From a virus, in IMG/VR virus record IMGVR_UViG_3300042938_002758, positions 1 through 22,992 of that record: 22,992 nt of DNA; one strand, given 5' to 3'. The number at the start of each line of letters is the position of its first letter. Position 1 is the stretch's first letter. Made by a program: the position numbers and the translations under genes. Positions 3-21,871 of this stretch are shown here, in pieces. A model generated the notes under the pieces. It was not told the DNA's origin. It saw only the letters and a program-made list of their open reading frames with translations, and ran no database searches.

Positions 3-1466
3 CCTCGTTTCAGAAAGCTGAATGAAAAACTCGGTCTCAATGAAAAGGATTTAAGAAAAGCCGCCAAAGCGCAGAACATGGTCACATTTTACGGTGCAGG
101 TGAGAAGACAGGTATTATGAGTGTTGAAGGTAAGCTTGCCAAAATACTCGGTAAAGATACCGACACATTGGTTGTCAAAGCTTCAGATCGTGATATTGTC
201 CTCAATGAAGTGTCAGCAAGAATTGCTCGTGTCGAAAGATATGACCCTGAAGGTGGAGCGGAACTTAGAGTACTTAGAGAAAATATTAAAAATGTTTTCA
301 ACAAAGGCTTAGATCCGGGTGATGATATTATGGAACAATTATTTTTCTTAGATCCAAAGACAAAAGATTTAGTTGAAAAGATGTCACGATCTTATGAAAG
401 AATAGTTACCCCTGAAGACTTCAAGACTATCGCCAAAATAATGAGTGAGAACCTTAGAGATCAAGTACCGATACTTAAAGACTTTACTAAGTATTTCGGA
501 AGACTCGCTGAAGACTTTTTGAATAATGCCAGACCATCATCAAGTGATTTCGATTGGAAATCTATAGCTAAGGGTCAAGTACTCGGAGATCGCAAAAGAG
601 GTTATATACTGCCTGACAGGATAAGTGAAATATTAGGATTGAAGGCCGGTGAGCCTGTGAGTGAGAAGCTTATCAAGCGATTCGGTTTTTGGAAACCCAA
701 TGGAACTATGGCGGATATTATATATGGTGTTAAGGCTCCAGATAATAGACGTACAGGATTTACAACGCTTAAGCTTGATGTTGCTCAGATAGATATCACT
801 AAGGGTATTGAAGTATTCACAGCAAACAAAATGCCGAAGAGTTGGACAAATGCACCTTCGGTAAACTTTGATGGCAAGGTCATTGAACAGAATTTTACAC
901 AAAATTTTGAAGAGAGACTCACCTACAAAGACAAAGATGGTAAATGGGTTACAAACATTCTTCAAATACCGCAGAAGACTGAAGCAACATGGTGGGAACA
1001 AGTCATAAACAAATCTGGAAAGATCAATGATATTGTTGATGCCACTCGTGCCAGAACAGCTTTTGGAGTAAACATGAATCATTCCAATGATGCCACTCTC
1101 GTTAAGAAGTTCCACTTATGGGGTAAGGAGAATAATGTTCCTACTTCAACAATTCATGATGCATTCTTCGCAAATGCGGCTGATATGTTAAAAGCTCGAA
1201 AAGCTCTTAGAGAAATATATTCAACTGTATTGGAAAGAAATGTAATTCAAGATACACTTAATGAGATGAGGTCTAGAGGCTTACCTAAAGAGCTTTACGA
1301 TAAGTATTTGAATGAAGCTAAGGATATAGGGTTAATCCCTATCCCTGGCAGGTCTGTCGTTGGAGGTAAAGTTTTGGAAGAAAAGGATATCTTGAAATTT
1401 GAAGATATTATAAAAGAAATTCCGGAAGGATTTAAAGATGACTATGGGTGGTATGGTATTGGGTAA
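3..1466 (+). CDS. Single-subunit (T7/N4-type) DNA-dependent RNA polymerase, C-terminal part (5' partial)
   Basis: The reading frame is open from base 3, so the gene continues off the left edge; the ATG at 78 lies inside motif B and is not the start. Numbering codon 1 at base 3, 487 residues are visible. Motif B of T7-family polymerases (R-x3-K-x7-Y-G; T7 R627, K631, Y639, G640) is met by R18, K22, Y30 and G31 (bases 54-95). HSND at 360-363 (bases 1080-1091) matches the HSQD of T7 and HSLD of mitochondrial polymerase. It is followed 25 residues later by the motif C HD pair (385-386, bases 1155-1160), whose Asp is the second catalytic metal ligand (T7 D812). Motif A and the DxxGR motif must lie upstream. 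About 100 residues follow motif C, against 71 in T7. The B-to-C distance (356 residues) is about twice that of T7, which is closer to N4-type virion polymerases. The family call is firm. Packaging in the virion and fusion to a head protein are inferred only from its place upstream of the scaffold. Confidence 0.9.
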   Translation, partial: PRFRKLNEKLGLNEKDLRKAAKAQNMVTFYGAGEKTGIMSVEGKLAKILGKDTDTLVVKASDRDIVLNEVSARIARVERYDPEGGAELRVLRENIKNVFNKGLDPGDDIMEQLFFLDPKTKDLVEKMSRSYERIVTPEDFKTIAKIMSENLRDQVPILKDFTKYFGRLAEDFLNNARPSSSDFDWKSIAKGQVLGDRKRGYILPDRISEILGLKAGEPVSEKLIKRFGFWKPNGTMADIIYGVKAPDNRRTGFTTLKLDVAQIDITKGIEVFTANKMPKSWTNAPSVNFDGKVIEQNFTQNFEERLTYKDKDGKWVTNILQIPQKTEATWWEQVINKSGKINDIVDATRARTAFGVNMNHSNDATLVKKFHLWGKENNVPTSTIHDAFFANAADMLKARKALREIYSTVLERNVIQDTLNEMRSRGLPKELYDKYLNEAKDIGLIPIPGRSVVGGKVLEEKDILKFEDIIKEIPEGFKDDYGWYGIG

Positions 1467-2272: not shown

Positions 2273-3457
2273 ATGACTATAAAGTCTTATACAGGCGCAC
2301 TTGGTGATACTCATGTATTACAAGAAGCAATCAGTGCATATTCAGATGAAGCTTATTCAAATGCGAAAAAGTTATCTGGAACAGGTATTGTTGGTAATAA
2401 CCCTTTAATCAATACTGATACAGAAACCTTTATTGGTCAAGTTCGTTGGTTAAAACCTTTAAATCCAACTATCAATGTAGCGTCTTTAACTGATTCTGCT
2501 GCAGGTGATAAAACTACTTTTGCATCTGACTTTTTACGTTATGTCAAAAGTGTTCGTACTCACGGTGCTGAAAAGATTAATATGCAACAAATTGTTACTC
2601 AATCAGATGGTCTTGCTAAAGTAGGACGTGATTTGGGCGAAACTCGTAGCCAAGATGAGCATGACGCAATTCTTGCTGTATTGAAAGGTGTTGCGATTTC
2701 TGAAGTACTTAATGGTGCTGGCACAGGATCAGGTGCTACAGGTCTTGGTGGTCAATCTTTTGATAATGATCCTACAGATAAGAAATATGGCTTTTATGTT
2801 GATCTTGGTGCAGCAAAACCTGTTGTTGATGCAACTGTTTCTGTTCAAGGCGCAGCTCGTGCTGAAGGCTTTTTACAAGCTATTGGTAAAGCATTCAAAG
2901 ATTATGAGCCTGAATATGCTTATTTAGTAACTTCTCCTGAAGTTTATGCATCTTTGCGTTCAGCAAATTTAGTTGATGAAATTGTTGTTGTTGATGGTAA
3001 CATTAATTTCAATACTATTTTCAACGGTAAATTCCGTATAATTCAAACTCGTGCAAGCCAAGGCTTCACAACTGCTGAATTGGCTAAATTAAATACTGGT
3101 AACGGTGTTGATATTGTTGGTACTAAAACTAGCTTTATCGTATTGCCAGGTGCTATTGCTCTTGAATCATTAATGGTTCCTGATCAAGTTGAAATTTATC
3201 GTAATGCCAATTCTTATAAAGGTGGCGGTGCTACTTCTATTTGGTATCGTTGGGGTTATGTACTTGCTCCTGCAGGTTATGATTGGAACGGTTCACAAGA
3301 AAAATTCGTCAGCAATGATGAATATAAATCTGTAATTGAAGGTGGTACAGCTAAAGCTGTAACTGCAGCTACTTCTATCACTGCAAGTACAGGTACTTGG
3401 ACTCGTAAAGTTGCCTCAGCTCTTTCTTTAGGTATTTTGCCAGTATTCCATTCTTAA
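2273..3457 (+). CDS. Major capsid protein
   Basis: This 394-residue protein is called as the main shell subunit from its place directly after the scaffold and before the neck genes, its typical size, and its codon use. All 12 arginines are CGT and Gly/Ala/Val codons favour GGT/GCT/GTT, a sign of strong selection for expression that its neighbours do not show. It has an alpha/beta composition with a Gly/Ala-rich central loop (GAGTGSGATGLGG, about residues 148-160). No membrane segment or signal peptide is seen. The ATG at 2273 follows TAAGGA. I expect the HK97 fold because all known tailed-phage capsids have it, but I did not recognise a specific subfamily. No N-terminal cleavage site or separate decoration protein is apparent. 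Confidence 0.85.
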   Translation: MTIKSYTGALGDTHVLQEAISAYSDEAYSNAKKLSGTGIVGNNPLINTDTETFIGQVRWLKPLNPTINVASLTDSAAGDKTTFASDFLRYVKSVRTHGAEKINMQQIVTQSDGLAKVGRDLGETRSQDEHDAILAVLKGVAISEVLNGAGTGSGATGLGGQSFDNDPTDKKYGFYVDLGAAKPVVDATVSVQGAARAEGFLQAIGKAFKDYEPEYAYLVTSPEVYASLRSANLVDEIVVVDGNINFNTIFNGKFRIIQTRASQGFTTAELAKLNTGNGVDIVGTKTSFIVLPGAIALESLMVPDQVEIYRNANSYKGGGATSIWYRWGYVLAPAGYDWNGSQEKFVSNDEYKSVIEGGTAKAVTAATSITASTGTWTRKVASALSLGILPVFHS

Positions 3458-3466
3458 GGATTAGCC

Positions 3467-3940
3467 ATGGCACTCGTGAAAGGTACAAACTCTTATGCAA
3501 CGATTTTAGAAGCTGATGCATATTTTTCAGATAGATTAGATGTTGCCGCATGGACTTCTGCTACTGAAGCTCAAAAGTCTCAGGCTTTAATTACAGCAAC
3601 ATCAATGCTAGATGATTTGGCCTGGACAGGGGTTGCTACAGACTCTTCTCAACTTCTAGCTTTTCCAAGAATAGGTTCATATTTTGATCCGAGGCTCGGT
3701 ATTACAGTAGAAATTTCAAATGTACCTTTAAGAATTTTAACAGCAAGTTTACAGTTGGCATATCATTTATTAAACAATGACGGATTATTGGATGATACAG
3801 GCTCAGCTTTAGATTTAAATATTGGTGGTATTTCTCTTACAAAAATAAGGAATCCAGGAAAGATACCATCAGTGGTTAAAAGACTTATAAGACCTTTGTT
3901 ATTAAACACTGCAACTAATACTTGGTGGCGGGCAAACTAA
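3467..3940 (+). CDS. Head-tail connector/adaptor protein (DnaT-like family of phage neck proteins)
   Basis: This 157-residue protein begins with a motif typical of a widespread phage neck family (VKGTNSYATILEADAYFSDR, then W...A..QKSQALITATSMLDD). The family is often labelled 'DnaT-like' in databases but lies at the adaptor position between capsid and tail genes. Helical segments at about residues 12-60 and 80-110 would form the ring under the portal. The start ATG is 9 nt after the capsid stop, with AAGGA 6 nt upstream. Its stop overlaps the next ATG by one base. None of its 8 arginines is CGT, in sharp contrast to the capsid gene next door. The adaptor role comes from family resemblance and gene order; a DNA-binding role is unlikely. 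Confidence 0.7.
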   Translation: MALVKGTNSYATILEADAYFSDRLDVAAWTSATEAQKSQALITATSMLDDLAWTGVATDSSQLLAFPRIGSYFDPRLGITVEISNVPLRILTASLQLAYHLLNNDGLLDDTGSALDLNIGGISLTKIRNPGKIPSVVKRLIRPLLLNTATNTWWRAN

Positions 3941-6668: not shown

Positions 6669-9600
6669 ATGTCTGGTATTATAATTGATGTAAACGCCAA
6701 AACTGCGCAAGCTGAAAAAGACTTACAAAGTATAAATAAGTCGATTAAAAATATCGAGACAAGTACCAAAGGAGTTTCAGATTCTCTCAAACAAATGTTT
6801 GTCAGTATCGGAGGTTTAGCTGCGCTGGGTGGTTCATTGGCGTACGTAAAGAACATTTCAACAGAGTTTAAACAACTTGAGAATAAAATAGCAACAGTTA
6901 CAGGTAGAACAAAAGAACTTGTTGCGGTACAAACAGGACTCTTAGATATCGCAAAGGCGACAAGAGGTTCTGTTGCAAACACTGTACAAACATATACAAC
7001 ATTCGGTAGAGCTTTAAAAAATACTCATCAATCTTCTCGAGATATTTTGACAGTAACAAAAGCGATACAACAATCATTTGCAATCTCAGGAACTGCGGCA
7101 GAATCTGCGAACAGCGCCATTATCCAACTGGGTCAAGGTTTATCTTCAGGCACATTAAGAGGAGATGAATTTAACAGTGTAATGGAACAAGCCCCTGGAT
7201 TGATTGAAGCAATTACAAAAGAATTAAAAGTTACGCAAGGTGAATTGCGTGCAATGGCTGCGGAAGGCAAGGTTACGGGAGATATTGTTTTTAAATCTCT
7301 ACTTGCACAGGCCTCGAACATTAATAAAGAATTTTCAGTGTTAGCTCCGACTCTAGCAGAAGCATCACAAGCAACAGCACAAGCTTTTAAAGTACTTGTC
7401 AACGAACTTGATAAGGGCGTTGGCTTAACAGATGCCATGGGTTTGAGATCTTTCAACATTGCAAGAAAAATAGAAGAAGCATCAAAAGGTGCTTTCGAAT
7501 TCGGTATAAATATCGCATTGGCCTATTATGAATTAAAGGCAAAAATTTTAGGGATTGTTGGTGAAATAAAACAATCCTTCAACACAATAAAGAATAGCGT
7601 AATACAAGCTTTCCCTCCAAATTTGATCGATAATCTTTTGGCTAAAGACTTTGGAAAGGTTCTATCTCAGCTCAAAGATTTATTCATATCGGTATTTAAT
7701 TCGATTTCAGGTGAAGTTGGAAGAATTTCCAAAGAGATCTTTTATAAGATGTCAGGTAAGACTGAATTTGTGATGATACTGTTAAGTATACGTTCTTTCG
7801 CAGTTGCTGTTATCGATATGTTTAAAGATCTTTTCAAAATAGTCACTGGCAGTGACGGTTGGACAGGATTGGTTGACACTATTACAGGAACTTCCAATAA
7901 CCTTTGGTCTTTGACCGTTGCAGGATTTACTCGTTTTAAGGATAACTTTATTAACCTATTCGAAGATATTCTCGATAAGGTTAAAGTTACCTATGGAAAG
8001 ATAATAGAATTCTTTAAAGAATTAGTTTCTGGAGTTTTTGAAGGAGACTTTTCTTCCAAATTTAGTTTCACGGTGGATATTGATAAAGCTGTAGCAAATA
8101 TAAAACAAGCATATGAAACAATAAAAGCTAAGATATTTAAAACCACGGAATTTCCGCTGCCTGTACAAGCTGGAGTTCTCGAGGCACCTCCAAGTCTTAT
8201 GGAAAGGCTCATCAGCAGTGTAAACAATAATGCTACTTTAAATTCTGTATTGAGCACATTGGATACTTTCGGTAAAAAGGTTATTGATATATTTTATCAA
8301 ATCTATGACCAAGTAATTGGACACTCATGGTGGACGGATACTATAGGAGAAGTCGTAGGAACATCGAATACTCTTTGGTCAAAAGTTTCTTCAGGATTGA
8401 TAGCTTTCAAAGCAAATATTATAGGAATCTTTAAAACAATCCACGATACCATAGCACCTTACGCAGAAGGGTTGAGTGGTTTATTTGAAAGTATTTCGAG
8501 CAAAGGTCCAACCAGTTTTAAAGTAAATATTGATTTTGATAAGATACAAACAGACTTTTTATCATTCATTGAAAAGGTCAAAGGTAATATGTCTGAGTTG
8601 GGGGATAAGTTTCCTTCAATATTAAAGACCGTAACTTACGGTTTGGGCTTTCTTCTTGTTAAGAATTTGTTTCCTGTTCCTGCGATTGAGGGTGCTTTGT
8701 TGGCTGCTTTCGCAACAAGTGGTGTATTTCTTTTAGATAACTTATCTCAAGTATTGACCGATAGAGGTTTGTTATCAGCGCTCGGCAAAACATTGGGCGA
8801 AGGTGCTGTGTATTTTGCAAAGACTTTCATTGCCGAAATTCCAAACATCTTAAGCTCTTTACTGGGTTTGATAACTTCCTTCACTGAAGGTTTCTTAACC
8901 AACTTACCGATAATCGGTGGTGCAATAAAGGCTCTCTTCAGTTTCTCAGATATGTTCGGTTTAAGCGGTATACTCGGTCTTGTCGGTACAGTACTGTTCG
9001 GAACAGGAGTTGTATCCCTGCTCAAAGGCTTCGGTATTATTGAAAGTGCAGCAATGTTATTCGGAACAAAGATGACAAAGCTAGCAACATTTTTCATGGG
9101 CAAGGGCGGATTAGTTTCCTCGGCTCTTTTTGGTGGTCCAAATACTGTAAGGATAGTTGCGACGTTACTGAGTGTCATTGATGCTTTTGGTGGGTTCAGA
9201 TCTTTATTTGATGACTCGACAATAGGACATACAATCGCTCAAGGTGGGTTATTCTATCTGATGCTGACAGGTAAAACAGGTCTTTCAAATATTGTCGGTA
9301 ACTTCCGTACATCTGTATTGGAACCGATAACATCAGGAATCCACAGGACTCTTAAAGATTTTGAAAAGCTTGGACCGAAACAATCAGATTTGTTCGGCAA
9401 GACACCGTTTCCTCCTTCAGGTCAAGTGGATATGTTTGGAGCATCGGGCGGAAAAGCTGATATGCGTTCCATGAAAATAGATTCATTACGTATTGCACGT
9501 TCAAAGATAGATGATTTTATCGGATTTGCTTCGACAAAATTTCAAGCCTTTGATGTAGGGGTTAATGCGTTTGTCAACAAGACAGCATCTTCGACCAAAC

Positions 9601-12600
9601 AAATGTTTTCAACAATTGCTCAAGCGTCTTCAACAGCATTGAGTACAGGAAATTTCAAAGGTGCCTTAGCTTCAATAACTTCAGCAAGTAGTGCTTTCAT
9701 AACTTCCATGACAACAATGGGCGGTACTCAAGGTGCTATCGGTAGATTGGTGTTCGGTAAAGTCGGCATGCTCACTTGGCTTGCTTTGTTGGCCATTTTC
9801 TTTGCAAAGTCGGCTTCCGCCAGTGATGAGTTTCACAGTAAATTGGAAGTTAAGAAAAACCCTTTCGATCAGATAAAGGGGTATTTCGGTGAATTGAACT
9901 TAGGATTTAAAGAAGGTTGGGGACAAAACGTAGTCTACGGTACACTTGCGATTGCTGCCATAACTGCGGCAATAGTTGTTTTTAAGTCGATAGCATCAAA
10001 TGTATTTTCTATTGAAGTTCCAAAAGCTGTCGGAATAGGTGCGGCAAAATCTGCAGTAAGTTTTTCTGAAATGCTTTCATTACTTGTGACAAGATCTAAA
10101 ATGGCAGGTATCGGCATTACAGCTGCATTGAGTAGTGTTGCTGCCACAACAGCACCTATCTTAGGAAGTGCCGTTACAAAACTCGGTTCATTTACAGGCT
10201 CAATCGTTAAGGCTTTCAGCGGTATCGGTGTGATTGCTGGCGGTGCATTTTTGGGAGCAATTGCCGGAAGAATGATGGGCGGTAATGAGCTTGCCTCGAT
10301 AGGTTTTGCGATGGGCGGTATGCTTGCGTTCAGTATGGCAAGTGCAATCACATCTGCTGTATCAGCCTTTCTGATCGGCTTGGGTGTCACACTTTCGGGC
10401 GTGGGGTTGTTTGCTATCGGTGCTGCGGTTGTCGGTGCAATAGGTTTATGGTTATTCGGAGATTCAGGAAACTTGTTCACTGAATTGGATCTTGTGATCG
10501 ATAAGTTGAAAGAAATTTCAGGTTTCGGGAAAGATAAGACATTATCATCAACAACAGGACTCTCGAAAGAAGCTGAAGCTTTAGCAAAAAGTTTACCTTT
10601 GGAATTGAAATATAATTTGGAAGATATAAATTTTGAGTTATTGTCCGACCGAGAGAAAGAAAGAACTAAAGATGCAATAAAAGAACTTCAAGATGCCTTG
10701 GACTCTGCGGCAAAAGATTTTGAAAAAGGTCTTCAACCGACACCTGAAACAGTAAACACAATAACCGCATTGGCAAAACGGGCTAATCTGTTGGGTGAAA
10801 AAGCTTCCGCAAAAACACAAGTGGATGCCACAAATCTTCCGAAAAGTCTGTTACAACTCAGGAATATGGATCCGACCGATACATTCGGGAAGGTTGAAAA
10901 ATATATTAAGCAATCCGCCATTTCTTTACAATATTATAATCAAGTTGCCGGACAAACAGTGTTGTCTTGGTTTGCGATGACAGATGCATCGAAAGAATAT
11001 TTTGCCGGAAGAAAGAGAGGATTGGCGGAAGATGTTGCCGCAGGAAAGTTCACTATCGGAGGACAAGCTCCAAGTGAACGCGAAAGCGCTTTAATGTTCC
11101 AACTTGCACAGTTAAAAGAGCTGACCATTGATCCCTCAATCGAAAGAGACTTGAACAGACTTACTGACGCTTATTATAATTTATTTAAAGAAGTTGAAGT
11201 GTCCAAGATAGGTGAATCTGTAACCAGACTTAAAGCACCGTTGGAAGAGGTTACAACTGCATTCTTGAATCAAATTGAAGCTCAACTACGTTGGGCAAGA
11301 TTGAATGATGCACAAACCAAGGGCATTGACAAGTTTCAGAAAAGACTATTATCCATTTCAGCTAATTTTAAGAAACTTGATATAACTTTCGATGCAAGTA
11401 AAATGCTTATCAAAGATGATGAGACTTTGAATAGACTTGACATGTTATCGAAGGAAGCGAAAAGACTTGCTGAGCAATGGCTTAAGACTGCGGGTACCGC
11501 TGAACAAAATAAAGTGTTACTTCAAATCGAAGAAGTCAAAACTCTTATTACAAGATATTCCACCGAGATAGTCGGCTTGGACAATACAAGAAAACAATTT
11601 AAACTTGTTGAGTTGGCCGCCAAAATCGGTATCACAGGTATCACTGAAGAAATGGCATTGACATTCTCGGACGCTGAAGCAGATGCTTATTTTCAAAAAT
11701 GGAATGCTTTGTTCTTGAGGATGGAAGACCTAAAAACCAAGGCTGTTAAAGACTTAAATACGATCGGCACTTCTTTGTTCATTTCTCAAGATGCCTTGCA
11801 ATCAAGTCAAATGGATTTTCAACCCAGACTGGGTACTTTGGAAGATATGTGGGGGATACAAAAAGGAGACTACTTACCCGCATCGAAAGCCAACTTAGCT
11901 GAACAAAAGAAGCTTCAAGAAGAGCTTGATACAAATGCCGCCAAAGGTGCAGCAAGCACACTTGCTCTTAAGGCTCAAGCTGAAAAAGCCAATGTCGGTC
12001 TTTATGATGCTGTCGGCAGAGTTGGTCTTGATACCGCCACAGCCACAATTACTCAGATTAACAAACTCAAACAGAGTATTATTGACTTTGAGAAAGAAAA
12101 TAAGAATCTTGAAGCAATTCCGGGTATTGAAGAACAAATAAATCAACTTCAAACATCTCTGAAGAAACTTGACCCTGAAACATTCAGTAACTTGATCGGT
12201 CGACTCGGTTTAAATCTGGCACCACAAGATATCCAATTGTTAAGCCCCTCTGCATATGATAGTATATTGGCCGCAGGAAATGCCGTCAGATTACTTGATA
12301 TGCAAGTCGAGGAAGCTAAAGATAAATTATCTAAAACAGAGCTTGATGCTATTATTAAAAAGAAAATGGAACTTGTTGAAAGTGCCATGATCAGTGCAAG
12401 TGAAGTTGCGTATTCTACAGGAGATAAGATCAAACAAGCTTTATCAGATTTTGGCATATCATCGGCTGAACAAATAAGTTTACTTCCTGACAATGCAATA
12501 CAAGATTTACTTGATACTCAAAAAAGCATAGGTGTTCTTAAAGCTGAATTGGCTAAACCGACTGACTTGAAAACATTTAAAGATCTTAATCATGAACTTG

Positions 12601-14927
12601 ACCTTATTGAGAAACAAGGGAAAAGTATTGTCGATGAATATGGTTCTTTGGAAACTGTTATTGGAAATATTAATAGTATTTTCAAAACAAATCTTTCTTT
12701 GATAGACTTGTCAAATTTTTCAACAGGATTTATAGCGGCAATAAAAGATACAGCTGAAGAACTTAAGCTTGAATTACAATCAGCAATTAATAGTGGCGAA
12801 TTGACCGATGCAACAAGAAATCTTTTAGCTAAAATGAAAGAGATTATGTTACAGGGTGAGTTTATTTCTATATTTTCGGACTTAGGTAAAAGCTTAGAAT
12901 CGGCTCTTGTCGGTGGTGCCAAAGCGGGTTTTGATAAGTTTAAAAGTATCTATGCTGATAGTCAAGCATCGTTCAGACAATATGCAATGTTGCCTCCAGA
13001 AGCAAGACGTGAACTTACTCAAAAAGCAAGTTATCAAGAAGCTTTTCAAAAAGCATCAAACTTACAACTTACTCCTGAGCAAGCTGATATTCTTAACCGA
13101 GTAGGTAAAGGTGAAGATATTCAAAAAGTTATGGAAGACTTTCAAACACAATTTAAAGGTATATTGGACGACAAAAATCCATTGGTTGTTTCTCAAGATA
13201 ATTTAAAAGAGTCTGTTGACGCTCTTAAAGAGTCTTTTGATAAATCGGTTGTTGATACTACAAAAACTCCTGAAATAGGAAAAGATATAGTTTCAAAAAT
13301 TAATGGCGGATTGAATTCTGAAAATGTTCCGAATTTACTTGCCAAACCCAAGTCTGATAAAAAGATTGGTGAGTTGTCTTCGGAAACTTTATTGAGTGGT
13401 GAATTGGCCGCCAAAAAGAGAGATTATGAAATAATAGGTAAGCTACTGGCCAAGAGTAATTTCAAAGGTGTTTTGGATGCTGCTGATGGTTTTGGTGAAG
13501 AGGTTAAGAATCTGGCAAGTAAATCTCAGCTTGAACAAGCGGCAAAAATCAAAATGAAGCTGTCGGAACTCCAAGTTAAACTTGAAGAAGCAAGATCAAA
13601 AGGTTTTGATACTGTAAATTTGCAAAAGAAAATTGACAATTATACCGATGAACTGGGTAGAATACCTTATGCTATTGACTATCTGCGTAATGCTATAAGA
13701 GAAGCCGGTGTAAATATGAGAGATACTGTTGATACAACATTCAGAGGAGCTTTTACCGATCTGTTAAAAGGTAAAGCTGCTGAAGGTGAATCTGCATTTT
13801 CAACATTCACAAGTACTCTTATGGAAGGTATAAGCAATTCTGTTGTGGATACTTTTGCCAAAGGAATAACCGATAGGATAACTGGACCCGGAAGCTTAAT
13901 TGCAGATGCTGCTCAATCAATGGGCGAAGGTATATATAACATATTTGGTAATGTTCTTGATGGATTGGGTTCAATGTTTTCAAGTGAATCTTCATCAAAA
14001 AGTGGCGGTATATTGGATTCAATAACAGGATTCTTTTCAAATATATTTTCCACATCCACATCGAAAGCGACTGCAGGGCAACCTGTGGGTGGTGGCTTCG
14101 GTGGCGGTGCAAGTGGTGGTCTTTTTGGCGGTCTGTCGGGCATTTTTGGTGGTGGCGATACTGGAGGCATGGGTGGCTCAAATGGTTGCTGTTGCGACAC
14201 AGGGACTGCAGGTGCGCTTGGAAAAGCTGGTGATTTGTTTAAAGGTGCTAATGGTGGATTAAATTCTGAAGGTATACCAAATCTACTTGCCAGACCTGAT
14301 GAAAGCATGTTCAGCGGTATCACAGATTCTTTGACTAAAACATTTTCAGGATTGTTTGGAGAAAATGGAACTATAGGCAAACTGCTTGATGGTTTTGGCG
14401 GCAATCTCATGGACATTTTTGGTGGTCTTTGGGACAGTCTTTCAGGCCTTTTTAGCGGAGGTAGTTCAGGAGGTGGTCTTAGTGGCCTTGCTGGTATAGG
14501 TGCTCTGTTTCTTGCCGATGGTGGTGTTGCTGGACAGGTAAAAGGAAAAGGTACAGGAACTTCAGATTCAATACCTGCTATGCTATCCAATGGTGAATTT
14601 ATCGTCAATGCAAAATCAACCAGAGAAAATTTGAAGTTATTGACAACTATAAATTCAGGTAGAATAAAGAAACTTGCTCAAGGTGGACTAGCTGATAACA
14701 TCAATATGCCGAGCATAGCTCCAATAAACAGCTCAAGCATGATGACTAATCCAACAAACTTGGAACCGATGAAATCAAACATTGGTAACTCGGGTAATAA
14801 TCAGACAATAAACTTATCAATTACAGGCGATATATCTCGTCAAACAAAATCGGAAATTTACAAAATGTTGCCGGTCATCGCCAATGGTGTAAATATGCAA
14901 AATAAAGAAAAAGGATATAAAGGATAA
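6669..14927 (+). CDS. Tail tape measure protein (2752 aa)
   Basis: The protein sets tail length and is threaded through the tube, leaving it during DNA ejection. The N-terminal ~250 residues carry the tape measure domain, with LRGDEFNSVMEQAPGLIEAI (about 163-182) and KELKVTQGELRAMAAEGKV as hallmark strings. A duplicated unit of about 155 residues follows (about 364-640, with GTSN.LW in each copy). Next is a long hydrophobic zone with several membrane-like segments (about 660-1275), then long helical or coiled-coil stretches to about 2400. A Gly/Ser-rich region (about 2440-2610) holds Cys2507-2509. The C-terminus has the conserved block FLADGG..(K)GTGTSDSIPAMLSNGEF (from 2614). The start has AAGGA upstream. 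At about 0.15 nm per residue the tail would be near 400 nm. No peptidoglycan-degrading domain was recognised. Confidence 0.93.
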   Translation: MSGIIIDVNAKTAQAEKDLQSINKSIKNIETSTKGVSDSLKQMFVSIGGLAALGGSLAYVKNISTEFKQLENKIATVTGRTKELVAVQTGLLDIAKATRGSVANTVQTYTTFGRALKNTHQSSRDILTVTKAIQQSFAISGTAAESANSAIIQLGQGLSSGTLRGDEFNSVMEQAPGLIEAITKELKVTQGELRAMAAEGKVTGDIVFKSLLAQASNINKEFSVLAPTLAEASQATAQAFKVLVNELDKGVGLTDAMGLRSFNIARKIEEASKGAFEFGINIALAYYELKAKILGIVGEIKQSFNTIKNSVIQAFPPNLIDNLLAKDFGKVLSQLKDLFISVFNSISGEVGRISKEIFYKMSGKTEFVMILLSIRSFAVAVIDMFKDLFKIVTGSDGWTGLVDTITGTSNNLWSLTVAGFTRFKDNFINLFEDILDKVKVTYGKIIEFFKELVSGVFEGDFSSKFSFTVDIDKAVANIKQAYETIKAKIFKTTEFPLPVQAGVLEAPPSLMERLISSVNNNATLNSVLSTLDTFGKKVIDIFYQIYDQVIGHSWWTDTIGEVVGTSNTLWSKVSSGLIAFKANIIGIFKTIHDTIAPYAEGLSGLFESISSKGPTSFKVNIDFDKIQTDFLSFIEKVKGNMSELGDKFPSILKTVTYGLGFLLVKNLFPVPAIEGALLAAFATSGVFLLDNLSQVLTDRGLLSALGKTLGEGAVYFAKTFIAEIPNILSSLLGLITSFTEGFLTNLPIIGGAIKALFSFSDMFGLSGILGLVGTVLFGTGVVSLLKGFGIIESAAMLFGTKMTKLATFFMGKGGLVSSALFGGPNTVRIVATLLSVIDAFGGFRSLFDDSTIGHTIAQGGLFYLMLTGKTGLSNIVGNFRTSVLEPITSGIHRTLKDFEKLGPKQSDLFGKTPFPPSGQVDMFGASGGKADMRSMKIDSLRIARSKIDDFIGFASTKFQAFDVGVNAFVNKTASSTKQMFSTIAQASSTALSTGNFKGALASITSASSAFITSMTTMGGTQGAIGRLVFGKVGMLTWLALLAIFFAKSASASDEFHSKLEVKKNPFDQIKGYFGELNLGFKEGWGQNVVYGTLAIAAITAAIVVFKSIASNVFSIEVPKAVGIGAAKSAVSFSEMLSLLVTRSKMAGIGITAALSSVAATTAPILGSAVTKLGSFTGSIVKAFSGIGVIAGGAFLGAIAGRMMGGNELASIGFAMGGMLAFSMASAITSAVSAFLIGLGVTLSGVGLFAIGAAVVGAIGLWLFGDSGNLFTELDLVIDKLKEISGFGKDKTLSSTTGLSKEAEALAKSLPLELKYNLEDINFELLSDREKERTKDAIKELQDALDSAAKDFEKGLQPTPETVNTITALAKRANLLGEKASAKTQVDATNLPKSLLQLRNMDPTDTFGKVEKYIKQSAISLQYYNQVAGQTVLSWFAMTDASKEYFAGRKRGLAEDVAAGKFTIGGQAPSERESALMFQLAQLKELTIDPSIERDLNRLTDAYYNLFKEVEVSKIGESVTRLKAPLEEVTTAFLNQIEAQLRWARLNDAQTKGIDKFQKRLLSISANFKKLDITFDASKMLIKDDETLNRLDMLSKEAKRLAEQWLKTAGTAEQNKVLLQIEEVKTLITRYSTEIVGLDNTRKQFKLVELAAKIGITGITEEMALTFSDAEADAYFQKWNALFLRMEDLKTKAVKDLNTIGTSLFISQDALQSSQMDFQPRLGTLEDMWGIQKGDYLPASKANLAEQKKLQEELDTNAAKGAASTLALKAQAEKANVGLYDAVGRVGLDTATATITQINKLKQSIIDFEKENKNLEAIPGIEEQINQLQTSLKKLDPETFSNLIGRLGLNLAPQDIQLLSPSAYDSILAAGNAVRLLDMQVEEAKDKLSKTELDAIIKKKMELVESAMISASEVAYSTGDKIKQALSDFGISSAEQISLLPDNAIQDLLDTQKSIGVLKAELAKPTDLKTFKDLNHELDLIEKQGKSIVDEYGSLETVIGNINSIFKTNLSLIDLSNFSTGFIAAIKDTAEELKLELQSAINSGELTDATRNLLAKMKEIMLQGEFISIFSDLGKSLESALVGGAKAGFDKFKSIYADSQASFRQYAMLPPEARRELTQKASYQEAFQKASNLQLTPEQADILNRVGKGEDIQKVMEDFQTQFKGILDDKNPLVVSQDNLKESVDALKESFDKSVVDTTKTPEIGKDIVSKINGGLNSENVPNLLAKPKSDKKIGELSSETLLSGELAAKKRDYEIIGKLLAKSNFKGVLDAADGFGEEVKNLASKSQLEQAAKIKMKLSELQVKLEEARSKGFDTVNLQKKIDNYTDELGRIPYAIDYLRNAIREAGVNMRDTVDTTFRGAFTDLLKGKAAEGESAFSTFTSTLMEGISNSVVDTFAKGITDRITGPGSLIADAAQSMGEGIYNIFGNVLDGLGSMFSSESSSKSGGILDSITGFFSNIFSTSTSKATAGQPVGGGFGGGASGGLFGGLSGIFGGGDTGGMGGSNGCCCDTGTAGALGKAGDLFKGANGGLNSEGIPNLLARPDESMFSGITDSLTKTFSGLFGENGTIGKLLDGFGGNLMDIFGGLWDSLSGLFSGGSSGGGLSGLAGIGALFLADGGVAGQVKGKGTGTSDSIPAMLSNGEFIVNAKSTRENLKLLTTINSGRIKKLAQGGLADNINMPSIAPINSSSMMTNPTNLEPMKSNIGNSGNNQTINLSITGDISRQTKSEIYKMLPVIANGVNMQNKEKGYKG
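7758..8590 (+). repeat. Internal tandem duplication in the tape measure gene
   Basis: Two units of about 125 codons (about 7758-8130 and 8225-8590) align at protein level: WTGLVDTITGTSNNLWS versus WTDTIGEVVGTSNTLWS, then GFTRFKDNFINLF versus GLIAFKANIIGIF, then FSFTVDIDKA versus TSFKVNIDFDK. The offset is about 155 codons. The DNA has diverged, so the duplication is old. Confidence 0.7.
13302..14297 (+). repeat. Repeated 16-residue motif in the tape measure C-terminal region
   Basis: NGGLNSENVPNLLAKP (13302-13349, residues 2212-2227) recurs as NGGLNSEGIPNLLARP (14250-14297, residues 2528-2543). Thirteen of 16 residues are identical although many codons differ, which suggests selection on the peptide. 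The two copies are 316 codons apart and flank the Gly-rich region. Confidence 0.75.
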
Positions 14928-14932
14928 TTTAT

Positions 14933-15532
14933 ATGTCGTACGGTATCTATGAAAACGGAAAAGTTATTGCAGCTTTCGTTGCTCCAATGAAAGTCATTAG
15001 CAATAAGCCAGTTTTTGTTTCAGATACCCTTTCTCTAAAAAGAGCAACATATGCAAGAACAGCTCAACGGTGGGAGATAGAAAGTAATCTAGAACCCCTC
15101 GTTGATTCTGCCAATGACTTGTTTGTAAATTTAGTAACAAAGGGTTTAACTGAAACAGTAACAATTTTAATGCCTCAAAATTATGGGGTTATAAAAAAGA
15201 GAACATCAACAGCAACACCCACAGCTGTTCAAGCAAGTAAGAATTCAAACAATGTTACAGTGACAGGTAATAATGGATTAATACCGAAAGGTACTTTTAT
15301 TAAGTTTGCCAATCATAGTAAAATATATATGTTGACAGAAGATTTTAAAAGTACTTCTTCAGCTTCTATGTATATTTATCCAAACCTTGTTGCCACTGTA
15401 AATGAAACTTTTAAATATTTAGATGATGTTCTTATGTCTGGATACTATGATACAACCAATATCGTTGGTATGTCATATACAGATGGTATAATGATGGACA
15501 TGGGTTCTGTAAAAATAGTGGAGAAATTATAA
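14933..15532 (+). CDS. Minor tail protein after the tape measure (distal tail / gpM-L-like position)
   Basis: This 199-residue beta-rich protein starts 5 nt after the tape measure stop, with AAGGA 7 nt upstream of the ATG. The N-terminal half (MSYGIYENGKVIAAFVAPMK, RTAQRWEIESNLEP) resembles tail-tip proteins that attach below the tube. The second half carries GLIPKGTFIKFANHSKIYMLTED, a 'G.FIKF..H.K.Y..T' pattern common in siphophage minor tail proteins. No catalytic motif or membrane segment is seen. Its order (tape measure, this gene, hub protein, J-like protein) matches the M-L-K/I-J section of lambda-like tails. The exact homologue is uncertain. Its stop overlaps the next ATG by one base. 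Confidence 0.65.
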   Translation: MSYGIYENGKVIAAFVAPMKVISNKPVFVSDTLSLKRATYARTAQRWEIESNLEPLVDSANDLFVNLVTKGLTETVTILMPQNYGVIKKRTSTATPTAVQASKNSNNVTVTGNNGLIPKGTFIKFANHSKIYMLTEDFKSTSSASMYIYPNLVATVNETFKYLDDVLMSGYYDTTNIVGMSYTDGIMMDMGSVKIVEKL

Positions 15533-16141: not shown

Positions 16142-19100
16142 ATGACAATAGCTGTCTTTGCAATTATAAAAACAATAATCACAATTATCGAAATAGTTAT
16201 GGTATTAACATCTATAGCTATGACAATTGTTCAGTTAACAGCTTCAGCTAAAAAAGGCAAGGGTGCAAGCCAATCAGCTCAAGATTCTAAGAAAGGTTTT
16301 GAAGTAGTTGTTGAAGGCCAGCCAGATTATATAGGTAAGGTATATGGAAGAGCTAAAGTTGGTGGTACACGAGTTTATCACAATGTATGTAGTGATTTCA
16401 AATATGTAAGCCCTGAAGCTGATCAAGTTTATCAAACAGCCACACACGCAACAGCCGGAGGAACTTTTTCAAAAATAAAGTATAATGTTGCCGGTGATTT
16501 GTATAATGAAGTAACAAACTATAGTACTCAAGATGACGGATCATTGTCAAAAGATATTAAAGGACATAATAAAAATGAATTTTTATTCTTTCAACAAATA
16601 CTTTGTCAAGGACCGATAAATAACATCATTGACGTAATTATTGATGAAAGCCGTTATTTGGATGATCCTAATATTGGGGACTATGTAAGAAGAACGGAAA
16701 CTTCATCAAGTGATGGTACAACCTCTGTTGAGTGGAAAAAGGCTCATGCGGCAATGAGAATAAATACATTCAATTCAGGTGGAAAGGTTGATAAACTCAT
16801 TGCGGCAAATTTTTCTGACAGAGCCAACGCCAGTTTTGATAATATGGCTTATATTACTGCAGTTGTACGTCTTGACAGAGAAGCTCCTCAATTCTCATCG
16901 GTACCTTCTTTACAATTTTTAATTGAAGGTTCATTGGTAAGAACAGTCAGCAGTGTAATAGTTGGAGGTGTATCAACCCCAACATTATCAAGTCTTGTAG
17001 AGTATAGTGCAAATCCTACAGGATGGATATACTCAAATAATCCTGCATGGTGTTTATTAGACTATTTATTAGATAAAAGAATAGGTAAAGGGCTTTCTCC
17101 CTCAGACATTGACTTAGGTTCTTTTCAACTTGCGGCAGCTGTTTGTGCAAAGCCTGTTCAAACAAATGCTGTGGTTGCAGGTAAATTTTATAAACCTACA
17201 GATGGTTCTCGCAATATTGATACAGTTACTGTACCACTGTATGAATGTAACATAATCATAGACCCTAAAAGAACTATAAGAGAAAATATAGAGGCTATTC
17301 TCGAAACAATGGCGGATGCTCGTTTAATATGGTCGAATGGAAAATATAAACTAAATCTACAATATGTAACTCAAAATTCTGATTTACTTATTGCTGCAAC
17401 ATTGACTGATGATGATTTAGTGCTTACTCAAAATGTTACAATTGCTTGGCCTTCCGCTTCTCAAAGATTAAATTTTTGTACTGTAAGATATCATACAGAA
17501 TTTGATAATTTTAAAGAAGATTCTGTATCATGGCCTCCAAAATATACAACTTCTTATATGAAAGGTGTTGGCGGAAAGAGATATACACCAACGGCAGGCT
17601 CTTTTGCAAATTCAGCTGGTCGTGGTAGATTGCTTAATGACTATGGTGTTTGGTCAGGTGGTTCTCCAACAACTTTGAATTATAAGCTATTAGTTCCAAA
17701 AGAAAAAGCTGGTACATACACGCTTTCTTGTGGTGTACAAAAGTCAATGGTATTGACTATAACAGATAGTTCAAATCAAGCGTTGTCAATGGGTTATACT
17801 CCTGAATCCGCTCTTGATATGAGTTTGTTCAATAATAATGTAAATCTTAATAGTCTTGGTTCAACAACACCCGTTACTGTCACAAATGCGAATATACCTG
17901 AAGGAAGTGGTCTTCGTAAGTATACTGTAGTTTTAGGGACAGCTTTGACGGATCAGATATATAGCATATCAATCACAGCCACAGGTGGAACAGGTATAAG
18001 ATCTGTTGCAGCTAAGCTGGAAAATACAACAAACATATTGTGGACAACAAGAGATGTTGCGTATGATGCTTATGTTTTACAAAGCACCAATTCAGGCGTA
18101 TATGACACAATGCTGGGTGAAGATAATGGTGTTAAGTTAGAATTTGAAATGTTCTCTGAAGGTATTTCTGATCCTTATCATGCCATGGCAAAAGCTGAAG
18201 AGCTGGTAAGAACCAGTAGATCTGCATTTTCAATATCTTTTAAATACTTAGTTACAAAAATGTATTTAGAGCCTGGTGATTATGTTAAAATTCAAAGTGA
18301 AAGTTTATATATAGGTTCCACAACAAATCCTTTAATTATTAGAATTAATTCTATAAAAATGATTGAAGGCAATGAATGTGAAGTCACTGCAAGTCGTTTT
18401 GATTATACACAACTGGCTTGGAGTGTTAAAGACGATGTTTATACATTGCCACCTAATGTTTATACAACATTGCTTGCACCTCCTGAATGGTTATTGTATG
18501 TACATACAGCAGAGAACTTGGCAAATTCTTCAGGCACACTTACTTGGCCTCTTGCACCTTTAGCTGATGAGTACGTTTTATACACTCATACTGCAGAAGA
18601 TCCTATTGATGCTGATACAGGTTTACCTATATTCAGAGAAATTGGAAGAGCATCGAAAGATTCAACAACATTTAATTTACCACAAATGAGTACTTTAAGT
18701 GCTTATTTTGGAATAAAATCTTTTTATAATGGTTCTTATTCTGATATGACTTATACAAGTACTGACGCTCCAGTATTACTTGCCGATACTTCATATGAAA
18801 TTACAGGTCTAGTTTTTACTTATAATAGCCCAGGTGCTAATCAAGTATCTTGGTCTTCTTTTACAGTTACATTAAACGGAGTTACTGTTAAGACAGTGGC
18901 TACAGGATATGCGACTTGGTCTTTACTTGATCTTTATATATACTACGATCCAATAGCCAATGTTGTAAAATCAACAACAAATATTAATATTGCTTACCAG
19001 GGCAAATTATTGTTAATATATAAAGGTGGAAGTGATGGTATTGTGGAAACTTCAGACTTATTACCACCAATCAATTTTTATGTAAAAGGTACAATAGGCA

Positions 19101-21871
19101 ATATTTTTGCAACGAAAGATTTAGATCTTACTTGGGACTATAATCCTGCAAATAATTTGAAAAAATCTACAATTGCTTATTACTTGTTGGCAGTTATTAA
19201 TCCCGATACAAATGTTGTTATGACAACAGCACGAATTGAATTGGATACATTAAAGGGTGGAGCTTATACATTTACATATGCAGACAATACAGCTTCTTTC
19301 GGTACTGCCAAAAGATCTTTTATTGTTAAATTATATAGTGTAAGTACAACAGGAGCTTTATCAGATTCAACTTCATTAAATGTAAATAACCCTGCAATAG
19401 CTGCAATAAATTGGTCTATATCAGCAGTATTTAAAAGTGTGGTTGTTACTTTAACGCCTACAACTCAAAGTGATTTAGCTGAATATATTGTTTTCAGAGG
19501 ACTTACCGCCAATTTTGCGGTAAACGGTACTGTTGATTTATTGGCTTCTAATATTGTATATCGTGGTACACAAACTTATATAAATATTGATGCTGAAACC
19601 AGTAAAACATATTATTATGTGGTTGCTGCCATTGATACTTTTGGCACAGTTGGTGCAATATTATCAAGCAGTGTAGCTGCATCTGCAATACCGATAGATC
19701 CTGATACATATGTATATACAGGCTTGAGTTTTATCGCAAACCATAATGGACCGCAATCGGTAACAAATGGTGTTGATTCCGGTTATTTATTAAATAGTGT
19801 ATATTGGACAGCTGCAACAGCTTCTAAGAATGGTGAAACAGCTACAACAATAAATAGTGGTACTGCAGTATGGACAACAGGAACATTATATATTTACTAT
19901 ATTCCCGGGAACAGTACATTACAAACCAACACATCATTAGTTGCGGCAATAAATGCAAACGGAAGAGTTCTTGCAACGTATAAAGGTGGTGCGGATGTCA
20001 CAAGCGATGCCGGTAAATCTTTTATTTCAGGAGATCAAATACTCACTGGAAGTATTGGTGCAAATGCTTTAGTCACAAATACGGCAATAATAACCAATGT
20101 GGCTCAGTTTGGAAATATTCTTCAAAGTGATGGGTATGCAAATACTACAGGATCTTATGCAGGATGGCGAATTGATAAAACAGGTTGGGCGCAATTTAAT
20201 AATATAACTATTAAAGATAGTTCTGGTAATACGCTGATGAGTTCAAGTGGTGGTGTAGTATTAAATGCTGCTGATCAGGCTGCACTGGAAGCTGCACAAG
20301 CTGCCGCTGATGCCGCACAATTAACAGCAACTAACGCTCAAACAGCAGCAAATACAGCCCAAACAGCTGCTAATAATGCTGCAACTAATGCAACCACCGC
20401 AAACACTGAATTGGCAAGTCTTGTAACGGATAATAAATTAAGTCCTATTGAAAAGCAAGTTTTAATAAGAGATGTTGATGCTATAACTGGAGAATATACG
20501 GGAATATATAACAAAGGAGTTTCTGTAAATTCAACATTGGTTACAGCTTACACAACTGCTTATAATGCTTTAAATACATATTTGGCGACTTTAACTTCAG
20601 CTGTTTTATGGAATAATATAAGTGGTTATACAACTGTAGTCAGAGCAACATTCAAAACAAAATTTAGTGATTATTATACAGCACGTCAAAATCTTTTGAA
20701 TGATATTACTGCAATTGCTCAAGCGGCCGCGGCCACAGCTCAATCATCGGCCAATACTGCTTCAACAGCGGCAGGCAATGCACAAACAACTGCTAATAAT
20801 GCTGCAGCAGCAGCAGGCGTTGCTCAAACAAATGCAAATAATGCAAATACAACTTTAAGCGATATAACCACAGATACAAAATTAAGTATACCTGAAAAAC
20901 AAATTGTAATAAGACTGGTTGCTGATATTGTAAATGAAAAAACAGATATAACAGCTAAAGGTACAGCTTTAAGCGCCACTTTAATTACTGCTTACAATAC
21001 TGCTTATACAGCCTTAATAACTACTTATTTGGCAGGAAATCTTACTGTAGGTTCTGGAACAACTGCATCAGGTGTGACAAAATCATGGAATGATGTGAGT
21101 GGTGCGACAACAATTGTAAGATTAACATTCAAAACAAATTTTAATAATTATTATACAGCTCGTCAAAATCTTTTGAATGAAATTTCGGCAATTGCAGCAA
21201 CCAAGGCAAGTTGGTCAGAAGTATCCGGTACAGGAAAGCCTCAAGATTATGCAACATACGGAGCTTATCTCGGAGATACTGTAACGGGTGATGGAGGAAA
21301 TACAACAGGAAAAATAAATGGTAATATACAAATTGCAAATGCCTCAATTCAGACATTGCAAGTGGCAGGTGATGCCATAACTGCCATGGAATCTGTATTT
21401 CCTTTCCATTATTTTCTACCGGTGACTATAGATACAACACCTATAAATTCAAGCGTATCAGTTGATGGTCAGATTGGACCTATAGTTGTTATTGCAACAT
21501 TACCTATTGCTGTTGTCAGCCTTTCAACAAAAAGAATTATAAATTTTTCTTGTGTTGCCACAATTTTTGATCAGGCCGGTGCCATTAACTTTTATGTATC
21601 AGACGGTATACAAAGCTCAAATATTTTTAAATTTACTGTGAATAATAGTTTAGCTATATACAATGCTGACAGGGATGGTACACGTAGAACTTCTTCAATT
21701 ACTTCAATGAGTTTCACAACGGCACTGACAATTCCCGAAAGTACTGCCAGAACTTTATATATTTATGCTTATTTGGAAACAGGTCGTTATGATGGAACTA
21801 CCAACTGGAAATTTACTTATCCTCCAAAATTGTCAAGTATTTCATTAACATCAGTGACAGGGAAACGATAA
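16142..21871 (+). CDS. J-like tail tip / central fibre host-specificity protein (1909 aa)
   Basis: The N-terminus has a hydrophobic stretch (residues 3-34), then the typical J segment GFEVVVEGQPDYIGKVYGRA(K)VGGTRVYHN (about 55-80). It continues through hub domains to about 780 (WCLLDYLLDKRIGKGLSP; ECNIIIDPKRTIRENIEAIL; MAKAEELVRTSR). Fibronectin-like beta domains follow (about 780-870 and 1085-1185), with two copies of another beta domain (from 885 and from 1192). After GSIGANALVTNTAIITNVAQ and GWRIDKTGWAQFNNITI come Ala/Asn/Thr-rich coiled coils and a duplicated helical domain (from 1422 and from 1570). The beta-rich C-terminal ~160 residues are the best receptor-binding candidate. The length is well above lambda J (1132). 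Host binding is inferred from family. Confidence 0.88.
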   Translation: MTIAVFAIIKTIITIIEIVMVLTSIAMTIVQLTASAKKGKGASQSAQDSKKGFEVVVEGQPDYIGKVYGRAKVGGTRVYHNVCSDFKYVSPEADQVYQTATHATAGGTFSKIKYNVAGDLYNEVTNYSTQDDGSLSKDIKGHNKNEFLFFQQILCQGPINNIIDVIIDESRYLDDPNIGDYVRRTETSSSDGTTSVEWKKAHAAMRINTFNSGGKVDKLIAANFSDRANASFDNMAYITAVVRLDREAPQFSSVPSLQFLIEGSLVRTVSSVIVGGVSTPTLSSLVEYSANPTGWIYSNNPAWCLLDYLLDKRIGKGLSPSDIDLGSFQLAAAVCAKPVQTNAVVAGKFYKPTDGSRNIDTVTVPLYECNIIIDPKRTIRENIEAILETMADARLIWSNGKYKLNLQYVTQNSDLLIAATLTDDDLVLTQNVTIAWPSASQRLNFCTVRYHTEFDNFKEDSVSWPPKYTTSYMKGVGGKRYTPTAGSFANSAGRGRLLNDYGVWSGGSPTTLNYKLLVPKEKAGTYTLSCGVQKSMVLTITDSSNQALSMGYTPESALDMSLFNNNVNLNSLGSTTPVTVTNANIPEGSGLRKYTVVLGTALTDQIYSISITATGGTGIRSVAAKLENTTNILWTTRDVAYDAYVLQSTNSGVYDTMLGEDNGVKLEFEMFSEGISDPYHAMAKAEELVRTSRSAFSISFKYLVTKMYLEPGDYVKIQSESLYIGSTTNPLIIRINSIKMIEGNECEVTASRFDYTQLAWSVKDDVYTLPPNVYTTLLAPPEWLLYVHTAENLANSSGTLTWPLAPLADEYVLYTHTAEDPIDADTGLPIFREIGRASKDSTTFNLPQMSTLSAYFGIKSFYNGSYSDMTYTSTDAPVLLADTSYEITGLVFTYNSPGANQVSWSSFTVTLNGVTVKTVATGYATWSLLDLYIYYDPIANVVKSTTNINIAYQGKLLLIYKGGSDGIVETSDLLPPINFYVKGTIGNIFATKDLDLTWDYNPANNLKKSTIAYYLLAVINPDTNVVMTTARIELDTLKGGAYTFTYADNTASFGTAKRSFIVKLYSVSTTGALSDSTSLNVNNPAIAAINWSISAVFKSVVVTLTPTTQSDLAEYIVFRGLTANFAVNGTVDLLASNIVYRGTQTYINIDAETSKTYYYVVAAIDTFGTVGAILSSSVAASAIPIDPDTYVYTGLSFIANHNGPQSVTNGVDSGYLLNSVYWTAATASKNGETATTINSGTAVWTTGTLYIYYIPGNSTLQTNTSLVAAINANGRVLATYKGGADVTSDAGKSFISGDQILTGSIGANALVTNTAIITNVAQFGNILQSDGYANTTGSYAGWRIDKTGWAQFNNITIKDSSGNTLMSSSGGVVLNAADQAALEAAQAAADAAQLTATNAQTAANTAQTAANNAATNATTANTELASLVTDNKLSPIEKQVLIRDVDAITGEYTGIYNKGVSVNSTLVTAYTTAYNALNTYLATLTSAVLWNNISGYTTVVRATFKTKFSDYYTARQNLLNDITAIAQAAAATAQSSANTASTAAGNAQTTANNAAAAAGVAQTNANNANTTLSDITTDTKLSIPEKQIVIRLVADIVNEKTDITAKGTALSATLITAYNTAYTALITTYLAGNLTVGSGTTASGVTKSWNDVSGATTIVRLTFKTNFNNYYTARQNLLNEISAIAATKASWSEVSGTGKPQDYATYGAYLGDTVTGDGGNTTGKINGNIQIANASIQTLQVAGDAITAMESVFPFHYFLPVTIDTTPINSSVSVDGQIGPIVVIATLPIAVVSLSTKRIINFSCVATIFDQAGAINFYVSDGIQSSNIFKFTVNNSLAIYNADRDGTRRTSSITSMSFTTALTIPESTARTLYIYAYLETGRYDGTTNWKFTYPPKLSSISLTSVTGKR
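18794..19995 (+). repeat. Duplicated beta domain in the J-like gene
   Basis: Unit A (about 18794-19041) and unit B (about 19715-19995) share the frame Y..TGL.F......NG....V..G.A.W....LYIYY.P......T......A....G.LL..YKGG.D. A fibronectin-like stretch lies between them. The match is visible only at protein level. Confidence 0.65.
20405..21205 (+). repeat. Duplicated coiled-coil/helical unit near the J-like C-terminus
   Basis: Unit A (about 20405-20720) and unit B (about 20849-21205) both run from T.L...(V/I)T(D)..KLS..EKQ..IR to FK..F..YYTARQNLLN(D/E)I.AIA. Inside them 33 nt (20671-20703 and 21148-21180) differ at one base only, indicating recent exchange or duplication. Each unit is preceded by an Ala/Asn/Thr-rich coiled coil. 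Confidence 0.8.

Follow-up and report, generated by a model that had tools for sequence, protein, structure and literature searches.

Why does a gene for a single-subunit RNA polymerase lie next to the head genes of a long-tailed phage, and what could the enzyme do there? The stretch of DNA that we analysed (the window) is a single IMG/VR record of 22,992 bases, and the start of this record cuts the polymerase gene. The remaining open reading frame (positions 3–1466, + strand) codes for 487 aa and is open at its 5' end in the list of open reading frames. This fragment alone matches PF00940 (RNA_pol; E 3e-8, above the Pfam cut-off) and the PHROG profile phrog_414 (RNA polymerase; 4e-10). The residues that the original prediction had read as polymerase motifs, i.e. 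R18, K22, Y30-G31, HSND and the HD pair, are all present. Motif B (RKAAKAQNMVTFYG, 54–95, +) contains the equivalents of T7 R627, K631, Y639 and G640, NHSND (1077–1091, +) corresponds to the region of T7 H784, and motif C (IHDAFF, 1152–1169, +) to T7 H811 and D812.

The polymerase stop is separated from the scaffold gene by 133 nt (1467–1599), in agreement with the prediction. It is followed by the genes for the head scaffolding protein (1600–2244, +; phrog_206, E 3e-9), the major head protein (2273–3457, +; phrog_247, E 1.4e-18), the head-tail adaptor Ad1 (3467–3940, +; phrog_477, E 1.6e-22), a tail terminator, a major tail protein, chaperones, the tail length tape measure protein (6669–14927, +; phrog_3336, E 4.6e-58), a pb9-like distal tail protein of a siphovirus tail tip (14933–15532, +; PF21430, phrog_1302) and a J-like tip protein. 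We thus conclude that the window contains the structural module of a siphovirus. As a rule of thumb, each residue of the tape measure protein accounts for about 0.15 nm of tail, and the 2752 aa observed here predict a long tail of near 400 nm. The J-like tail tip protein (16142–21871) has 1909 aa, and its C-terminal third matches phrog_38044 and phrog_31539, both of unknown function.

The complete gene encodes a MuF head domain and a polymerase

One contig (L002) shares 11,463 bp with the window at 100% identity, extends it to the left and comes from the window's own virus. Extending the contig leftward had been proposed together with the guess that a MuF domain is fused upstream, and both the whole frame and the domain are indeed found there. 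The full frame (L002:6839–11464) encodes 1541 aa, and the gene in the window is its 3' third (residues 1055–1541). PF04233 (Phage_Mu_F) covers residues 144–249 (E 1.2e-12; 49 bits vs a cut-off of 29.6) and PF00940 covers the C-terminal part (E 3.7e-13; 49.5 bits vs a cut-off of 22). The two domains also occur in one frame, both above the Pfam cut-offs, in the phage DSS3_VP1. Furthermore, phrog_241 (head morphogenesis) spans residues 1–347 of the full-length protein (4e-59), and all 48 homologues that have sequence there contain the PPxHxxCRS motif of MuF proteins. The protein is thus laid out as a MuF minor-head part (about residues 1–345) and a T7-superfamily RNA polymerase part (about residues 560–1541), and we here call it MuF-RNAP. 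A portal gene (phrog_145, 8e-56) lies upstream in L002, where the order is portal, two small open reading frames, MuF-RNAP, scaffold and major head protein. This places the fusion gene in the terminase-portal-head operon.

Motifs, fold and selection

Among 51 full-length homologues, the aspartate and arginine of DxxGR, Asp1010 of motif A, Lys1076, Tyr1084 and Gly1085 of motif B, His1414, and His1439 and Asp1440 of motif C are invariant. Motif A and DxxGR, whose presence in the full gene was to be checked according to the original prediction, are thus both there, the latter as DHRAR in the window's clade; it reads DxxAR in all of these homologues but one. The homologue in DSS3_VP1 carries an alanine in place of the motif B arginine (T7 R627). 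An alignment with T7 that also includes N4 shows all catalytic columns in register. Conservation along the protein peaks in the motif regions, where the mean identity is 0.73–0.75 vs 0.52–0.64 at the N-terminus.

A phmmer search of the PDB with the fragment found T7 at E 0.48 only, and a profile search at 0.04–0.06; therefore, we had to compare folds. Residues 342–1541 were modelled with AlphaFold2 (mean pLDDT 72, pTM 0.65), with parts at low confidence. The model matches the right-hand fold of T7 RNA polymerase (Foldseek E 1.7e-15; Z 21.6 to 1s76 over 523 residues at 4.6 Å) and mitochondrial RNA polymerases (Z up to 22.6), and the identity in the structural alignments is 11–17%, i.e. the protein is highly diverged from T7. 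The best viral fold match is an entry of 1463 aa, which is the length of the DSS3_VP1 homologue, YP_010105321.1. An isolated profile match to the transcription regulator 1uly (E 7e-4) falls in a linker region and was set aside. Judged by profile, motifs and modelled fold, the polymerase part is a T7-superfamily single-subunit RNA polymerase, and its sequence suggests that it is catalytically active. The dN/dS of this part is 0.034–0.059, which shows by computation that it is under purifying selection.

The gene is interrupted in some relatives. Group I introns (RF00028) were found in the MuF-RNAP genes of L026 and L063, and EBPR siphovirus 1 has an HNH-bearing insert; introns and insert share one codon boundary within motif B, V1081/T1082. 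The introns or insert at this site are located at L063:9128–9362, L026:4737–5029 and L082:15082–15931, and L009 has the same exon boundary near 666; a second break is found near residue 990 in L026. That several phages have group I introns at a single place in motif B fits a gene whose spliced product matters.

Distribution of the fusion

Scanning IMG/VR, we detected 371 relatives, and at least 543 in a second scan. At least 80% of the fusion is present in only four of 50,697 phage records, which belong to three named phages: DSS3_VP1 (two records), DSS3_PM1 and EBPR siphovirus 1. About 1200 other phage records match and, among the matches listed, only with the MuF part. The homologues of the full-length protein (1541 aa) share 28% (DSS3_VP1/DSS3_PM1) and 57% (EBPR siphovirus 1) identity with it. 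None of the three phages has an RNA polymerase annotation for the gene. In DSS3_VP1 and DSS3_PM1 (Naomviridae), it is annotated as 'head morphogenesis / minor head protein-like' with the polymerase unnamed, and the intron-split fusion of EBPR siphovirus 1 (gp47+gp49) is annotated only as head or hypothetical proteins.

The Pelagibacter siphophages Kolga and Aegir encode a related stand-alone RNA polymerase and a MuF protein of 633 aa. PHROG matches to the latter cover the MuF region only and include no polymerase family; thus, the fusion appears to have been added in one particular lineage. The MuF protein of Kolga (L162:6001–7902), a phage with a stand-alone polymerase, has about 290 extra C-terminal residues. 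A scan of genome contigs found only two contigs, from one metagenome-assembled genome (MAG) and one of them as long as an IMG/VR phage contig, and no prophage form was seen in it. JAOUJT010000001.1 (L140), a 74-kb phage contig of the MuF-RNAP group, is binned in a gammaproteobacterial MAG, which is a weak hint at the host. The replication module of another genome (G001) includes a dATP/dGTP diphosphohydrolase-like domain (PF18909; L146:9406–10011) and a B12-dependent ribonucleotide reductase (L146:16625–18529).

A second RNA polymerase and promoter-like motifs

All ten relatives of at least 60 kb encode a second, stand-alone canonical T7-like RNA polymerase, whose gene precedes the replication genes. 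The possibility that MuF-RNAP is a plain early T7-like polymerase was rejected, as this second enzyme fills that role.

Two classes of promoter-like motifs were found in the seven genomes scanned (G001–G007). The class I motif CCCGTTAAATTAACCC (at most two mismatches) occurs four to seven times per genome in six of them and once in the seventh, nearly always in intergenic regions and on the coding strand. In dozens of contigs, it is located a few nucleotides past the MuF-RNAP stop; in the window, this candidate phage-RNAP promoter lies 9 nt past the stop codon (1476–1491, +), where 0.02 occurrences are expected by chance. These 16 bp are near-invariant amid diverged intergenic DNA, and a short hairpin often follows. 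The counterpart in DSS3_VP1 is ATAGGTTACGTTAAAGAAGGGG, which has CGTTAAA in common with class I. The class II motif, GCGGAAA..GTATCTTATATGATA, occurs two to four times per genome, with at least one copy upstream of the second polymerase gene in all seven genomes. In G001, it is found at 43234, 43899, 59484 and 63410, with equivalents in the six other genomes, and one copy is often located 47–142 bp after a class I motif.

Compared to the hairpin promoters of N4, the class I core GTTAnnTTAAC is a dyad with a variable left arm (GTAAAATTAAC), and class II has no GC-rich hairpin. The class I dyad GTTA-3-TAAC was set aside as an N4-like hairpin promoter, since some relatives have a disrupted left arm but keep TTAACCC. 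A likeness of AATTAACCC to the T3 promoter was also set aside, because nothing is conserved downstream of it. Class II can also be read as a sigma-70 promoter (TTGCGG, 16 bp, TATGAT), with GCG and the spacer better conserved than TTG; if it were a host sigma-70 promoter, early transcription would fall to the host enzyme. In the phage P23-45, an AT-rich motif serves the virion RNA polymerase, which produces the non-virion RNA polymerase; the latter in turn uses a GC-rich motif (PMC10770324). By analogy, a virion polymerase may start at class II and the second polymerase at class I.

Proposed packaging and injection

The best explanation for this gene, and one that we consider probable, is that it encodes a virion RNA polymerase that is anchored by MuF, packaged and injected, and that starts early transcription. 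The gene lies with portal and scaffold and is therefore presumably expressed late. Given that a dedicated second polymerase exists, the best explanation for an enzyme produced at this stage is that it serves as cargo for the next cell. An enzyme encoded among terminase, portal and scaffold genes would be most useful if carried there. The class II copies upstream of the second polymerase gene in all seven genomes also count in favour. Two substitutions count against, the alanine of DHRAR in the window's clade and the alanine in motif B of DSS3_VP1. So do the possible sigma-70 reading of class II and the low-confidence parts of the fold model. Furthermore, MuF proteins need not exit the virion, which counts against injection.

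We infer packaging, injection and promoter use as follows. The MuF domain would bind the portal from within the procapsid, by which the polymerase would be packaged in few copies beside the DNA exit. During infection, the fusion would leave through the portal and the long tail, probably threaded unfolded, and refold in the infected cell. It would then transcribe the first phage genes, including that of the second, stand-alone T7-like polymerase, which would take over the replication and late genes. In a more detailed version, fusion to the portal-bound MuF protein would have brought a T7-type polymerase into the virion in a widespread group of siphoviruses, independently of N4. The enzyme would be injected through a tail of several hundred nanometres and transcribe from AT-rich class II promoters, which would yield the second polymerase, and the latter would then use the CCCGTTAAATTAACCC promoters. 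This version appears to us evenly balanced between true and false.

Alternative explanations

The late structural operon would also suit a polymerase that is made late and acts in the producing cell, for example in late transcription or packaging, with MuF only tethering it to the assembling head; it would then not be injected or not be used in the next cell. The phage-type promoter-like motif directly after the gene and the presence of a second polymerase agree with this scenario. However, the stand-alone polymerase already suits the late role, a tether in the capsid interior would take the enzyme out of the cytoplasm, and phiKZ, P23-45 and N4 each pair one virion with one non-virion polymerase. 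We therefore consider late action unlikely. Could the polymerase domain instead be catalytically dead and serve as a DNA-binding or structural protein of the head or of ejection? The change from G to A in DxxGR, the loss of the motif B arginine in DSS3_VP1 and the low identity to T7 in the structural alignments would be expected for such a protein, whereas all 51 homologues retain the two metal-binding aspartates, the two histidines and, in motif B, the lysine and YG, and the motif regions are more conserved than the N-terminus. A dead enzyme is thus improbable.

The protein might also be an N4-type virion RNA polymerase (vRNAP) that moved onto a siphovirus head protein. It belongs to the same superfamily, its model matches the N4 mini-vRNAP (Z 16.1) and the two-polymerase logic is shared with N4. 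Nevertheless, most N4 vRNAPs have T/S at D421, Q/H at Y427, G at H784 and F at H811, whereas the MuF clade has D, Y, H and H. The weak hhalign comparison, based on single sequences, gives a probability of 0.3% with N4 vs 38–66% with T7. A tree with N4 vRNAP and T7, as suggested in the original prediction, sets the MuF clade apart from the N4 vRNAPs with high support, based on 481 columns of very low identity and leaving out the intron-split gene of EBPR siphovirus 1; we do not trust the grouping of the MuF clade with N4 RNAPII (88) in this tree. Querying with the N4 mini-vRNAP yielded 377 phage records; a MuF fusion is absent from all 14 matches listed. In summary, T/SxxGR, an FD motif C and a position in the N4 vRNAP clade were not found; the protein has a DxxGR-type motif and HD and forms a separate clade. 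Thus, the claim of a T7/N4-family polymerase stands for the T7 superfamily (PF00940, motifs) but not for the N4 virion type, and we regard an N4-type origin as highly improbable.

Comparison to known systems

A packaged and injected MuF-RNAP would have several partial counterparts. N4 gp50 (Schitoviridae; PDB 2PO4, PMC12633501) shares the T7-superfamily fold and catalytic motifs, the location among virion genes, the second T7-like polymerase and the same working model. However, gp50 is a podovirus protein of 3500 aa with a C-terminal encapsidation region, TxxGR and an FD motif C, whereas MuF-RNAP is a siphovirus protein of 1541 aa with an N-terminal MuF domain, a DxxGR-type motif and an HD motif C on a separate branch of the tree. 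P23-45, a very long-tailed Thermus siphovirus, has its vRNAP fused to the tape measure protein (PMC10770324). Similarities are the polymerase on a structural protein of a siphovirus, the second non-virion polymerase, and two separate motifs, of which one is AT-rich and strongly conserved and lies at pre-early genes and the other contains GC; in contrast, both polymerases of P23-45 are two-barrel (cellular-type) enzymes, with the carrier being the tape measure protein, and here a T7-type enzyme is carried by a MuF head protein. Jumbo phages of the phiKZ type (PMC13282480) also inject a virion polymerase through a long tail and have a second non-virion polymerase, but these are multisubunit beta/beta'-like enzymes of a myovirus without a MuF fusion.

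The original prediction had also named crAss-like phages as carriers of packaged polymerases. Their vRNAPs are two-barrel enzymes, whereas the polymerase part of the window protein, being T7-type by profile, motifs and fold, falls outside this double-psi beta-barrel class. The same grouping of crAss-like vRNAPs as two-barrel is given in the literature (PMC10770324). Nor are virion polymerases limited to short-tailed phages, as had been assumed, since phiKZ-like jumbo phages (PMC13282480) and P23-45 (PMC10770324) are long-tailed. The passage of a polymerase through a narrow or long tail, which had been seen as an open question, therefore has precedents in these phages and in N4 (PMC12633501).

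SPP1 gp7, a prototype of MuF proteins, reaches the procapsid interior in few copies, targeted there by the portal, and helps infection to start (PMC6316719). In MuF-effector fusions (Iyer 2017, PMC5512222; SPP1 gp7, PMC6316719), a portal-adjacent MuF protein likewise carries a C-terminal enzyme. According to the portion of PMC5512222 covered here, the cargoes are different, namely toxins, RNases, 2H phosphoesterases, RelA/SpoT and similar; such fusions are proposed as carriers of injected enzymes, N4-like RNA polymerase modules are stated to occur only in N4-like phages, and no polymerase cargo on MuF is mentioned. In the part of the literature that we covered, we found no description of a T7-type, non-N4 polymerase on MuF in a siphovirus. 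Virion polymerases and MuF cargo are known separately; what appears new is their combination with a non-N4 T7-type enzyme in a siphovirus.

Implications

This architecture stands beside the giant N4 gp50, the fused crAss and tape measure-linked two-barrel enzymes and the multisubunit enzymes of jumbo phages. Hundreds of environmental contigs contain the gene without a name for it, and so does DSS3_VP1, a phage isolated on Ruegeria pomeroyi DSS-3; the gene is thus directly testable. The fusion also makes the passage of an enzyme of about 170 kDa through a siphovirus tail accessible to experiment. The genome of DSS3_VP1 is deoxyuridine DNA (PMC12697855), and among jumbo phages with such DNA, some bring their own polymerases (PMC13282480); MuF-RNAP may therefore bear on why these phages carry an RNA polymerase. 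If packaging and injection hold true, MuF-RNAP would add one more independent origin to those of the virion polymerases and would be the first RNA polymerase carried by the MuF route, which suggests that this route can deliver the transcription machinery itself.
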